Shown: one piece after another, positions 2,942-39,005 of the stretch
Layout of the letters: every line of letters begins with the position of its first letter
Numbering within the stretch: position 1 is the first letter of the stretch
IMG/VR virus record: IMGVR_UViG_3300020177_000019
Coordinates: 1 to 40,460 of that record
Length of the DNA: 40,460 bases
Direction: 5' to 3' (one strand)
Source: a virus
Made by a program: the position numbers and the translations under genes
The notes under the pieces: generated by a model
What the model saw: the letters and a program-made list of their open reading frames with translations, nothing else
Databases searched by the model: none
Told to the model about the DNA's origin: nothing

Positions 2942-3880
2942 ATGCGCGAAGAATTCCTGTGGGTAGAAAAGTATCGTCCTGCCAAAGTAAAGGACACTAT
3001 TCTACCGCCTGAGCTTAAAGCTACCTTCCAACAATTCGTAGATCAAGAAAATATCCCTAATATGATTTTATCTGGCACTGCTGGTGTCGGTAAGACTACG
3101 ATTGCCAAAGCAATGCTCGAAGAACTCAACTGCGATTATATCGTGGTGAACGGTTCTCTTGATAGAAACATTGACACACTTAGAAATCAAATCATGACTT
3201 TTGCATCGTCCATGTCGCTCATGGGTGGTCGCAAGTATGTCATTCTAGATGAGGCAGATTATCTGAACCCTCAGTCAACACAGCCCGCACTGAGAAACTT
3301 CATGGAAGAATTCTCTAGCAACTGTGGATTCATTCTGACTTGTAACTTTAAGAATCGAATCATTGAGCCACTACACTCACGATGTTCTGTGATTGAATTC
3401 AAGCTGTCTGGTGAAGATAAGGTCAAGTGTGCGGCACAGATGTTTAAACGTACCTGCAACATACTTGACCAAGAAAACATTGAGTATGACAAGCAAGTCA
3501 TTGTTGAAATCATCAACAAACATTTTCCAGACAATCGCCGTATTCTCAATGAACTGCAACGATACTCTGCTAGTGGTAAGATTGACACTGGCATCCTAGC
3601 AAATTTCCAAGACATTTCAATCAATGAACTTGTGAAGAGTCTGAAACAGAAAGATTTCACTGCTATACGAAAGTGGATCGCGATGAACACTGATACAGAT
3701 GCAGTATCACTTTTTCGTCAGATATATAATAAGTGTTCAGAATTTTTACAGCCAGCGAGCATACCTCAACTCGTATTGATTCTTGCTGACTATCAATACA
3801 AGTCTGCGTTTGTCGCTGACCAAGAAATCAACACTACTGCCTGTCTGACCGAGGTCATGGCGAACTGTGAATTTAAGTGA
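2942..3880 (+). CDS. 44: Clamp loader ATPase large subunit gp44
   Basis: AAA+ ATPase of the T4 clamp loader. It opens the gp45 ring and closes it on primed DNA together with gp62. Visible motifs counted from ATG 2942 are EKYRP (9-13), Walker A GTAGVGKTT (45-53), Walker B DEAD (103-106) and the SRC arginine-finger motif (146-148). I chose ATG 2942 because TGGAG lies at 2929-2933 and the product then begins like T4 gp44. An in-frame ATG at 2912 would add ten residues and has no good ribosome site. At 312 aa it is close to the T4 length (319). Confidence 0.93.
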   Translation: MREEFLWVEKYRPAKVKDTILPPELKATFQQFVDQENIPNMILSGTAGVGKTTIAKAMLEELNCDYIVVNGSLDRNIDTLRNQIMTFASSMSLMGGRKYVILDEADYLNPQSTQPALRNFMEEFSSNCGFILTCNFKNRIIEPLHSRCSVIEFKLSGEDKVKCAAQMFKRTCNILDQENIEYDKQVIVEIINKHFPDNRRILNELQRYSASGKIDTGILANFQDISINELVKSLKQKDFTAIRKWIAMNTDTDAVSLFRQIYNKCSEFLQPASIPQLVLILADYQYKSAFVADQEINTTACLTEVMANCEFK

Positions 3881-19670: not shown

Positions 19671-19964
19671 ATGTCTAATCCATATGAACTGCGTTTTAAA
19701 GTCCTCGAAATGGCACGCGAACTCGAAATGCATCAATACGAGCAATTGATGAATTCTTACTGGTCGTTACACAATCAGGTAGAAAATATGCTCGCTTATA
19801 TCGATGGCAAAGTAGGAACTGAGTTTGACAGTGCTTATGAAAAATTGTATGATTTAAGTTGCCAACTCAAAGAAGCAATACCACCTATGCCGACATCTGA
19901 TCAAATCAATCAGAAGGCATCTGAACTTTATGAATTTGTTGAGCGAAAGCCTCAAAGACTATAA
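19671..19964 (+). CDS. Helical hypothetical protein, 97 aa
   Basis: Mostly alpha-helical with heptad-like spacing (YELRFKVLEMARELEMHQYE, then EKLYDLSCQLKEAIPP), so a coiled coil is likely. Ribosome site AAGGAGAC (19659-19666) is strong. A tandem AACGTTTAA repeat lies just before it. The last codons overlap the late promoter box that precedes the tmRNA. Function unknown. Confidence 0.65.
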   Translation: MSNPYELRFKVLEMARELEMHQYEQLMNSYWSLHNQVENMLAYIDGKVGTEFDSAYEKLYDLSCQLKEAIPPMPTSDQINQKASELYEFVERKPQRL

Positions 19965-19967
19965 ATA
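19960..19967 (+). promoter_or_regulatory. T4-type late promoter TATAAATA upstream of tmRNA
   Basis: A perfect TATAAATA spans 19960-19967. T4 late transcripts begin about 13 bases after the first T, predicting a start near 19973, immediately before the first helix of the permuted tmRNA. This makes late expression of tmRNA likely. Confidence 0.7.
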
Positions 19968-19972
19968 AAGTT

Positions 19973-20275
19973 ATTCGATGAAACATTGTAAATAAGAAGT
20001 GCGGACGCGGGTTCGAATCCCGCCGCCTCCACCATAAACACATTGGCACGGACGTACAGTGTCGAAAATAAGACCAGTGTGTTTATGATGGGGGCGTTAC
20101 GGAATCGACGGGCAACTGAAAGCAATGTGGAGAATCAGACGATGAACGCCGTCTGTATAAACAGGGTTCAAAGCAATAACTGCCAATGACGACAGTTACT
20201 ACGGAGACGTTCGCCTAGCGGCGTGATCTTCGCGGGGTGGCCACTACCTTGTTACCAAAGTGTGGCATTTTATTA
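19973..20275 (+). ncRNA. ssrA: Circularly permuted (two-piece) tmRNA
   Basis: The acceptor piece comes first: T-arm GCGGG (20007-20011), loop TTCGAAT, CCCGC, then acceptor strand CGCCTCC (20024-20030) and ACCA (20031-20034). The coding piece starts at 20090 with GGGGGCG, which pairs with CGCCTCC to give seven pairs with one G-U, followed by ACGGAATCGACGGG as in all tmRNAs. ACATTG (19983-19988) pairs with CAATGT (20123-20128) as the long helix. A resume-type TAACT precedes the tag GCC AAT GAC..., reading ANDDSYYGDVRLAA and stop TGA 20224-20226. The loop 20035-20089 forms a 13-bp hairpin to be removed. The two mature RNAs would tag stalled peptides for proteolysis with host SmpB. Confidence 0.9.
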
Positions 20276-20303
20276 TGACAATTAAAACTAGGAGGGTACG
20301 AAG

Positions 20304-20840
20304 ATGAGAATTCTTATACCACTGATGTTTTTATTATTCACTGTCTCATGTGATAATCAAATTGAATCGAATACAGAAGAACTTACCGAAATCGTTGTCA
20401 CAGCACAACGCCTGCCTGAAGTGCAAATCAATCCAGACGAACTAGAATGCCTCGCCGCGAACATCTATTTTGAAGCGAGAGGCGAACCACACCTAGGCAA
20501 ACTGGCTGTCGCTCATGTCACACTCAATCGAGTCCGAAGTAAATCATTTCCAAACGATATCTGCGGTGTAGTCTATCAAGCCAAGACTAATTCAAAAGGT
20601 AATCCTATCCGACACAAATGCCAGTTCAGTTGGTACTGTGATGGCAAGCGAGAAGTCATTGATGAAAAAGATAAATATGAAGAGATAAAACAACTTGCTC
20701 ATGAATTTTTATCTGCACCGAATGAAGACATTACAGACGGTGCTGAGTTTTATCACGCTGTCAGTGTGTCTCCATTCTGGAGAAAATCTTTTCAACAGAC
20801 AGTCGTAATCAATGACCATATTTTTTATAAAAAAGGATAG
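20304..20840 (+). CDS. SleB-like cell wall hydrolase, lipoprotein, 178 aa
   Basis: A lipoprotein signal (MRILIPLMFLLFTVSC, Cys16) is followed by a linker with a TonB-box-like TEIVVTAQR, then the hydrolase_2/SleB domain: ECLAANIYFEARGEP with catalytic Glu57, VAHVTLNRVRSKSFPNDIC and CQFSWYCDG. These enzymes cut peptidoglycan glycan strands. A lipid-anchored version would act from the outer or inner membrane late in infection. The ribosome site AGGAGGG (20290-20296) is very strong. It lies directly after the tmRNA and may share its late promoter. Confidence 0.83.
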   Translation: MRILIPLMFLLFTVSCDNQIESNTEELTEIVVTAQRLPEVQINPDELECLAANIYFEARGEPHLGKLAVAHVTLNRVRSKSFPNDICGVVYQAKTNSKGNPIRHKCQFSWYCDGKREVIDEKDKYEEIKQLAHEFLSAPNEDITDGAEFYHAVSVSPFWRKSFQQTVVINDHIFYKKG

Positions 20841-26970: not shown

Positions 26971-27232
26971 CGATCTCTTCGACGGAACAAACTTGTTTTT
27001 TAGAGAAGCGAATCTTAGTTCCTTCTTTGATGTATCTGCTTTTTACTTTGAATTGAGTAATGTCTGATACTTTGACAAGGCAGTTTGTTACGACTTCATA
27101 CTCGTTACCTGTTTTGTCTTTGAGGACAATATGTTCTGGTGTAAATCGAACAACTGGTAGCAAAGTTTTAGTTGGCACTTCGCTGTATGCGAGTGATGGG
27201 ATGAGCAATAGAGCTAATAAAATAGTTCTCAT
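26960..27232 (-). CDS. Exported small protein, 90 aa
   Basis: A cleavable-type signal peptide (MRTILLALLLIPSLAYSEVP, cut after AYS) is followed by a compact beta-rich domain (VVRFTPEHIVLKDKTGNEYE) with two cysteines (TNCLVK and KKQVCSV) able to form a disulfide in the periplasm. The minus-strand ribosome site GAGGAG is at 27240-27245. One of only two clear minus-strand genes, convergent with the cytidylyltransferase. Function unknown; an envelope or lysis-related role is possible. Confidence 0.72.
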   Translation of the reverse strand: MRTILLALLLIPSLAYSEVPTKTLLPVVRFTPEHIVLKDKTGNEYEVVTNCLVKVSDITQFKVKSRYIKEGTKIRFSKKQVCSVEEIVKT

Positions 27233-27349
27233 GAGTTTTATCTCCTCTCGCCGTCACGGCGATTAATCGTTTCACAACGGAATTGTTGCAGTTTTGTTAC
27301 ACTGCATTAGTATGTATACAAAATTCACATTAAAAAATTGTGAAAATTG

Positions 27350-27357
27350 TATAAATA
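27350..27357 (+). promoter_or_regulatory. T4-type late promoter TATAAATA upstream of hsp20
   Basis: A perfect TATAAATA at 27350-27357, with an AT-rich flank and in noncoding sequence. The expected start is near 27363, giving a leader of about 90 bases before hsp20. Confidence 0.75.
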
Positions 27358-27362
27358 GATTT

Positions 27363-27453
27363 GCTGATTCCTTGGGAAAGGGTCGGCACTTCTCTACGCC
27401 GAATGGTCGGGTAGAGTATAACAACAATCTTGCTTAATATAAGGAGAACTGTT
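27363..27453 (+). promoter_or_regulatory. Structured hsp20 5' leader, possible ROSE-like RNA thermometer
   Basis: Three hairpins can be drawn. First, CCTT 27370-27373 with AAGG 27378-27381. Second, CTCTAC 27392-27397 with GTAGAG 27411-27416, continued by CCGA/TCGG around an ATGG loop. Third, CTTA 27433-27436 with TAAG 27440-27443 and flanking TTG opposite GAG. The last encloses the AGGAG ribosome site behind TTGCT (27430-27434), the sequence and near-SD G-G mismatch typical of alphaproteobacterial ROSE elements. This would block translation at low temperature. It is a prediction from sequence only. Confidence 0.5.
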
Positions 27454-27909
27454 ATGGTTTCTAAAGCATTTTCTTTTCCACGTTCACATTTCATTGGTTT
27501 TGATCACGTATGGTCAGAGATTGAGAGACTGTCAGATATGGCAGACAATAAACTCTATCCTCCACACAACGTAGTCAAGCACACTGAAACTCAATTCTCT
27601 GTAGAACTGGCGCTTGCTGGTTACTCAAAAGATGCACTGACTGTTGAAGTCAAAGAAGGCATTCTGGTTGTAACAGGTGATGGTCGACCTACTTTGAATG
27701 ATGAAGTTGAGCGTGAGTATCTACACCGTGGTATTTCTGCAAAGAAATTTACACGTACCTTTAGACTCTCTGAACATGTTGTTGTAGAAGGAGCAGACTT
27801 CAAAGATGGATTACTGGTCATTGACCTGAAAGTAGAGATCCCAGAAGAGAAGCGTCCTCGTACTATCCCAATTGGAAATACGGATAAACAACTACTAACA
27901 GAGGACTAA
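27454..27909 (+). CDS. hsp20: Small heat shock protein Hsp20
   Basis: 151 residues with the alpha-crystallin domain. FSVELALAGYSKDALTVEVK is a core strand pair, EYLHRGISAKKFTRTFRL follows, and ADFKDGLLVIDL is the A-x-x-x-G-L signature. RPRTIPIG is the C-terminal I-x-I oligomer motif. It binds unfolding proteins as an ATP-independent chaperone, and marine T4-like phages commonly carry it. I start it at ATG 27454 behind AAGGAG (27441-27446); an upstream in-frame start (27430) would lie in the leader structure. Confidence 0.93.
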   Translation: MVSKAFSFPRSHFIGFDHVWSEIERLSDMADNKLYPPHNVVKHTETQFSVELALAGYSKDALTVEVKEGILVVTGDGRPTLNDEVEREYLHRGISAKKFTRTFRLSEHVVVEGADFKDGLLVIDLKVEIPEEKRPRTIPIGNTDKQLLTED

Positions 27910-38824: not shown

Positions 38825-38944
38825 ATGAAAAATCCAGTTGCTAAGAATGCTCGCCGCTTTAACAAGGCAGTGGTCATGGTCGACCGTAAAAAGGCGGCAA
38901 AGCGTGGTTATAACAAACACAAATCTTATAACAAAATATTCTAA
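38825..38944 (+). CDS. Conserved-type tiny basic protein, 39 aa
   Basis: MKNPVAKNARRFNKAVVMVD then RKKAAKRGYNKHKSYNKIF is a strongly basic peptide, a kind of short gene (KNPVAKNARRFNKA opening) that I recognise in many phages. Ribosome site CGGAG (38814-38818). Its final six codons and stop are repeated as a relic at 14811. Nucleic-acid binding from charge; function unknown. Confidence 0.68.
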   Translation: MKNPVAKNARRFNKAVVMVDRKKAAKRGYNKHKSYNKIF

Positions 38945-38962
38945 ATTTTGTTGAAAAAAAGT

Positions 38963-38991
38963 TTGACTTCCTTGGCTACCTGTGAGATAAT
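38963..38991 (+). promoter_or_regulatory. Extended -10 promoter, family copy E
   Basis: -35 TTGACT 38963-38968, 17-base spacer with TTGGCTACCTGTGA, -10 GATAAT 38986-38991. Best member of the family, with a good -35 and TGA before the -10. The leader continues TTGTTGAGTTGAGAGG and then a structured segment. Confidence 0.82.
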
Positions 38992-39005
38992 TTGTTTGTT
39001 GAGTT

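Follow-up and report, generated by a model that had tools for sequence, protein, structure and literature searches.

ROSE elements consist of two to four hairpins, the last of which holds the Shine-Dalgarno sequence (SD), and they are described as always tied to bacterial small heat-shock protein (sHSP) genes (accessible sections of PMC11182007 and PMC4166951, respectively). The Pseudomonas ibpA thermometers have two hairpins in 61–62 nt and block the SD at 25 °C; heating melts the second hairpin while the first stays folded (PMC3669281, accessible sections). In phages, the thermometers described earlier are those of lambda cIII and SPbeta blyA, to which a sigma70 fourU element has been added (PMC11182007, same sections). 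sHSP genes are widespread in marine T4-like phages, and a conserved thermometer would say when the protein is made. For the S-ShM2 sHSP, the authors of PMC5028025 write, in its accessible part, that expression and the in vivo role remain to be shown, and the available text of a paper on cyanophage sHSPs (PMC3827213) mentions none of thermometer, ROSE, leader or untranslated. The literature searched reports no thermometer of any type, ROSE elements included, ahead of an sHSP gene in a phage, in line with the original prediction that temperature control by a phage of its own chaperone would be new.

The gene studied here belongs to a virus record of IMG/VR that is 40,460 bases long and was analysed in full (the window). 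The gene is flanked by T4-like replication genes, encoding a clamp loader 44-type protein, UvsX, a DnaB-type helicase and a family B DNA polymerase. Relatives of the window hsp20 occur in 500 of 50,697 phage records, and relatives of a cyanophage Hsp20 in 505 of the same 50,697. Elsewhere in the window, a permuted tmRNA of alphaproteobacterial type (19942–20317; tag ANDDSYYGDVRLAA; a TATAAATA at 19960) hints at an alphaproteobacterial host, and a TET-associated glycosyltransferase (PF20691, 11275–12216) suggests modified bases in the phage DNA. The features of the hsp20 leader are as follows.

27350..27357, + strand: T4-type late promoter box TATAAATA (sequence)
27363..27387, + strand: hairpin 0, an extra 5' hairpin directly at the putative transcript start (predicted folds)
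27392..27416, + strand: hairpin 1, with a bulged G at 27398 (fold, drawn in relatives, covariation)
27417..27423, + strand: 5' strand of an outer helix that pairs with 27450–27456 and would take in the start codon (minimum free energy (MFE) fold of 27364–27456)
27428..27447, + strand: SD-sequestering hairpin (fold, Rfam ROSE_3 alignment, alignments to models R1 and R3)
27430..27434, + strand: anti-SD UUGCU with bulged G 27432 (sequence; the U(U/C)GCU motif of ROSE elements in the accessible sections of PMC11182007 and PMC3669281)
27441..27446, + strand: Shine-Dalgarno AAGGAG (sequence)
27454..27909, + strand: hsp20, phage small heat-shock protein, 151 aa (Pfam PF00011, E 2.1e-14; PHROG 432 Hsp20, E 4.9e-35)

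The leader has the architecture of a ROSE-like element. Three hairpins had been proposed for 27363–27453, and every one of them is present in the 10–30 °C MFE fold of 27364–27456, together with the outer helix 27417–27423/27450–27456 over the AUG; this falls within the two to four hairpins of a ROSE element, with the SD in the last. In that hairpin, predicted pairs join 27428–27431 to 27444–27447 and 27433–27436 to 27440–27443, and G27432 bulges out between U27431–G27444 and C27433–G27443. The SD at 27441–27446 is imperfectly paired with a U(U/C)GCU motif carrying a bulged G, as in ROSE elements, and the AGGAG is indeed hidden behind TTGCT. The flanking G was also correctly recognized, although the simplest drawing makes it a bulge rather than half of a G–G mismatch. 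The hsp20 ATG (27454) stands seven bases 3' of the SD, which places the element in the leader of a small heat-shock gene. Of 43 distinct leaders in the window clade, only 10 allow the outer helix (ATAAC...GTTATG) to form, and we therefore regard it as a non-core part. In a longer RNA (to 27480) the SD can instead pair with codons 4–8, giving a competing fold. An extra hairpin between promoter and hairpin 1 was seen by eye in some relatives as well (L020, L036, L088, L112 and L150).

The box TATAAATA is one that we take to be a late promoter by analogy with T4. It occurs four times in the window against 2.24 expected, which is no significant excess, so that the box alone carries no significance. 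Immediately 5' of hairpin 1, however, 58 of 68 representative leaders carry a late-box-like word, against 16% of shuffles; several of the remaining 10 have a further hairpin in the intervening stretch.

Similarity to Rfam ROSE models, whose lack would have refuted the original prediction, is present, if below the curated cut-off. Of the 4227 Rfam families, all of which were compared with the 401-base stretch 27200–27600, ROSE_3 (RF02523) has the lowest E-value; it matches 27390–27459 over its full length (1–69 of 69 positions; 31.9 bits, E 7e-5), and in a second ROSE_3 search the match had E 1.7e-6. No other place in the whole window matched ROSE_3, nor did any of 14 control genomes. The score is under the cut-off of 43 bits, which counts against the thermometer reading, and for that reason we file the leader as a ROSE-like element, a phage variant, outside RF02523. 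Rfam cut-offs are strict: a Rhizobium sHSP leader reaches 38 of the 45 bits set for RF00435, and five other bacterial sHSP leaders (L344, L351, L377, L402, L411) are not listed at E ≤ 0.5 in the same comparison. The rhizobial model matched none of 10 records (the window and nine phage records), a silence that shows little because the controls gave no match either. Across 58 records, ROSE_3 matched 12 at E ≤ 0.001, one of them above the cut-off in a record resembling host DNA. In that record, Pseudomonas phage Y7 (L087, OQ572409.1), an ibpA of bacterial appearance comes with a full-score ROSE_3 match (69.2 bits). Its UNVERIFIED flag and the grouping of its Hsp20 with Acinetobacter suggest host DNA, and the record was set aside as phage evidence.

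Covariance models built from phage leaders alone find the window element. Models R1 (from eight C48C1-type leaders), R2 (nine cyanophage leaders) and R3 (11 Mosig-type, or pelagiphage-type, leaders) derive only from clades other than that of the window. R1 matches the window at 27392–27456 and nowhere else (32.6 bits, E 4.2e-5), and R3 at 27391–27456 (36.1 bits, E 7.7e-7), with a second place at chance level (38931–38994, E 1.6). The cyanophage model R2 reaches only E 0.12 on the window leader, which counts against the reading. On mixed loci the models match 44 of 72 sources (R1), 51 of 60 (R2) and 20 of 34 (R3), always at the hsp20 leader, the R2 and R3 counts including a few of the models' own rows. 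On whole records, R2 matches 9 of 17, each at the hsp20 leader, with two weak extras in Syn33 (E 0.12 and 0.38), and R3 matches 14 of 27, once each and always at the hsp20 leader.

The element is widely conserved. Four protein-based scans of viral contigs (80 loci each), the first 12 of 19 named phage records and the window gave 327 loci whose leader measures 75 bases or more, of which 193 are distinct; start codons were picked by a script that prefers a nearby SD, and the leader counts are to be read with that caution. Of these 193, 190 allow a bulged-G SD hairpin (Y-(G)-C on the SD, at least two inner and at least three outer pairs) to be drawn, against 2.8% of 9500 sequences in which everything upstream of the SD was shuffled. 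The three exceptions are two Vibrio phages and locus L146. All 68 representatives (<88% identity; L087 and L092 excluded) allow a hairpin 1 that has a bulged G of its own; of 3400 shuffles, 20.5% give any such hairpin and 1.4% give one with as many pairs as observed. The hosts of phages with the element include Synechococcus, Prochlorococcus, Pelagibacter, Methylophilales, Sinorhizobium and Pseudomonas. By the covariance models it is present in 15 of 18 named phage records (Y7 uncounted): C48C1, Mosig, Melnitz-1, HTVC115P, Phosso, S-CAM3, P-RSM1, S-CREM1, AG-345-D19, S-ShM2, Syn33, S-SM2, P-SSM5, ACG-2014f and Callisto. In the two Vibrio phages with hsp20 it is absent by both the drawing rule and the models, and this counts against the thermometer reading. 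S-TIM66 has no model match, and its altered SD (AAGGUGG) still folds into an SD hairpin with a bulged G; AG-345-D19 likewise retains the hairpin and bulged G with a changed SD. These are compensating changes in an SD arm that is elsewhere nearly invariant. Four loci labelled as bacteria (MAG contigs L341, L342, L343 and L345) have a phage-type hsp20 that falls among phages in the Hsp20 tree, with a late box at least in L341, and probably represent phage contigs that were binned into MAGs. A glutamine riboswitch match in S-CREM1 (L091:779–835, minus strand; 33.5 of 35 bits, and part of the record's own annotation) lies a few hundred bases from hsp20.

In ROSE-like thermometers the SD helix includes non-canonical pairs, and as it melts on warming, translation increases. 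Folding energies give a graded picture for the present leader. In ViennaRNA the mean unpaired probability of the AAGGAG is 0.10 at 20 °C and reaches 0.20 at 40 °C; a sharp melting transition was sought and not obtained, the predicted opening being only gradual. The folding check proposed with the original prediction yielded the hairpins, at 10–30 °C, but not a sharp melt. The energy needed to open the SD is 6.91 kcal/mol at 20 °C, falling to 4.86 at 37 °C, compared with 5.58 and 4.01 kcal/mol for the Pseudomonas-type leader L087. Across 35 other gene leaders of the window the mean at 20 °C is 2.48 kcal/mol, with two above the hsp20 value, and none of 20 shuffles of the window leader reaches its cost. 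Family-wide, SD opening does not as a rule cost more than in dinucleotide shuffles (at most one of 20 shuffles reaches the cost in only 9 of 68 representatives), and because the excess is not family-wide we dropped this test as support. The lack of a sharp melt and the family-wide result count against the thermometer reading; the modelling as a whole can be taken as neither proof nor refutation of a thermal switch.

The absence of a sharp predicted melt would also suit a conserved leader that lowers hsp20 translation in response to some other signal, a protein operator (for example for RegA) or ribosome occupancy, and that has retained its ROSE shape to this end. Gene order in several of these phages is compatible with this idea: hsp20 stands right behind regA in S-SM2 and ACG-2014f, while in S-CAM3, S-CREM1 and C48C1 regA is found one or a few genes before it. 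The element is also found with no regA neighbour in the stretch shown in Mosig, HTVC115P, Phosso and Callisto, however, and the leader design matches bacterial elements tested as thermometers (PMC3669281, accessible sections). We consider control by another signal unlikely.

Paired positions change together. In an alignment of 63 rows (56 distinct) fitted to R1, a procedure that favours the structure used, 97.6% of cells are paired and 232 are changed on both sides (score 0.612), against 72.0%, 69.2 double changes and 0.148 in shuffled controls; with the structure slid by 1–3 columns the values fall to 42.0–54.2%, 14–41 and 0.037–0.087. One of five measures, the number of further pair types, shows no excess (33 versus 34.2 shuffled). 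A structure-anchored count over the 68 representatives agrees, its rows having been chosen by the same pairing rule. A MAFFT alignment of all 68 was rejected for misplacing the SD in a number of rows; smaller clade alignments and a model-fitted one were used. There is little sequence variation in the SD arm, so the covariation stems mostly from hairpin 1 (double changes in 8 of 10 pairs) and from the SD stem's outermost pair, which counts against the thermometer reading; in the inner SD helix two of six pairs have double changes, the other four being invariant or one-sided.

That hairpin 1 covaries most, and that hairpins 0 and 1 lie at the putative 5' end, would suit a structure that stabilizes the late mRNA, with SD pairing as a by-product. 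Such a role would leave unaccounted for the UYGCU/SD hairpin and its bulged G, the part most conserved in sequence and kept despite SD change, as well as the whole-record R3 matches, which fall before hsp20 and at no other gene of those records; we judge it very improbable. With many forks of the Hsp20 tree open, and its bacterial members selected by similarity to the query, the tree sets neither donor nor number of transfers. It is highly unlikely that the leader is a relic that arrived with a bacterial sHSP gene and was kept by descent only: alphaproteobacterial sHSP leaders do show UYGCU opposite the SD (by eye) and the Phosso Hsp20 does group with bacteria in the tree, but keeping the pairing through many double changes needs selection, and phage Hsp20 clades that are far apart nearly all keep the element.

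On the basis of the phage-only covariance models, the covariation and the wide conservation, we conclude that the SD-sequestering leader element is real, conserved and ROSE-like. A thermal switch is the best-supported reading of it, by analogy with the bacterial elements, and the leader is very probably a phage-borne ROSE-like RNA thermometer with a predicted response to temperature. The thermometer reading is built on the position of the element, its pairing, its conservation with covariation and its likeness to ROSE_3 and to the other phage leaders. The phage late promoter would produce a short late transcript starting at the hairpins, and this coupling to the late box would confine the Hsp20 switch to late infection. 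At ordinary temperature the imperfect hairpin, with UUGCU and the bulged G, would hold the SD and keep Hsp20 translation low. On warming, the SD hairpin would melt while hairpin 1 stayed folded, and ribosomes could then make Hsp20 just as phage and host proteins start to unfold, to the presumed benefit of the phage.

We scanned viral contigs at the DNA level for ACTTGCTTN{3,8}AAGGAG and ACTCGCTTN{2,7}AAGGAG (at least 120 stretches each). Among the 240 matches listed, the next ORF encodes Hsp20 in 165, is another ORF of at least 25 aa in 21, and is lacking in 54; since the search used no protein, the tie between motif and Hsp20 is strong. The 21 other ORFs include some for small proteins of 63–90 aa that have no trusted family match and may resemble phasins. 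In three freshwater-type contigs (L668, L676 and L681, at about 3001–3725) the leader is followed directly by such a small protein (about 71 aa) and an Hsp20-like ORF (by eye). Two large phage records, G076 (194.5 kb) and G077 (113.6 kb), hold two elements each, the first ahead of an Hsp20-like ORF with a ClpS-like ORF behind it (both by eye) and the other ahead of a small protein; sites in two-element large phage records are L691 (G076:16191), L688 (G076:6541), L690 (G077:21685) and L427:2803. R3 marks a third place in G076 (84957), which we took as chance since the frame that follows is just 14 residues long. In a 16 kb contig (L538/G078), R3 matches occur before dnaK (HSP70, E 1.1e-255) and before hsp20, with clpS behind.

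L538:4395–4469, − strand: ROSE-like element before dnaK (R3 match)
L538:2416–2471, − strand: ROSE-like element before hsp20 (R3 match)

The former would be a ROSE element on a non-sHSP gene. The contig's placement in IMG/VR, its ribonucleotide reductase and its cell-wall hydrolase point to a phage, short of proof. The neighbourhood of hsp20 and clpS recurs (L086, L338, L538, L688 and L690, from Phosso, Callisto and viral contigs; ClpS by eye in L688 and L690) and is perhaps a proteostasis cassette. At a little under even chances, we suggest that aquatic phages carry a heat-shock regulon of their own, made of ROSE-like thermometers before hsp20 in nearly all, with additional copies before dnaK or small-protein genes of the same genome in some, that would follow temperature independently of host heat-shock regulators and would have been retained as phages crossed from one host phylum to another.

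Because a near-identical switch stands before hsp20 in very many aquatic phages, phages may turn on their own chaperone with temperature. If so, temperature would act directly on the expression of phage genes in the ocean, and ROSE elements would extend from bacterial sHSP genes to phages and possibly to other genes.

How does this leader compare with known systems? Like lambda cIII, the SPbeta blyA fourU and the Caudoviricetes sigma70 fourU, it would be a temperature-responsive phage mRNA leader, but in the accessible sections of PMC11182007 and PMC10586365 none of these is ROSE-like or precedes an sHSP gene, and they are single cases, whereas the present element spans many phage clades. With rhizobial ROSE (RF00435) it shares the SD hairpin, the UYGCU with bulged G and the place before sHSP genes; the rhizobial element is longer and has more hairpins. 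Temperature regulation was tested for the Pseudomonas ibpA thermometers and is predicted for the phage leader, which also differs from them in being phage-borne, lying behind a phage late box and, in the window, having an additional hairpin on the 5' side as well as an outer helix that covers the AUG. Common to both are two hairpins with the SD in the second opposite U(U/C)GCU, a stable hairpin 1 and an sHSP gene (PMC3669281, accessible sections). The arrangement had originally been likened to alphaproteobacterial ROSE elements; the ROSE-like SD hairpin bears this out, but among described elements the leader is closest in shape to the short ibpA thermometers of Pseudomonas, with their two hairpins, and not to the longer ROSE of rhizobia.
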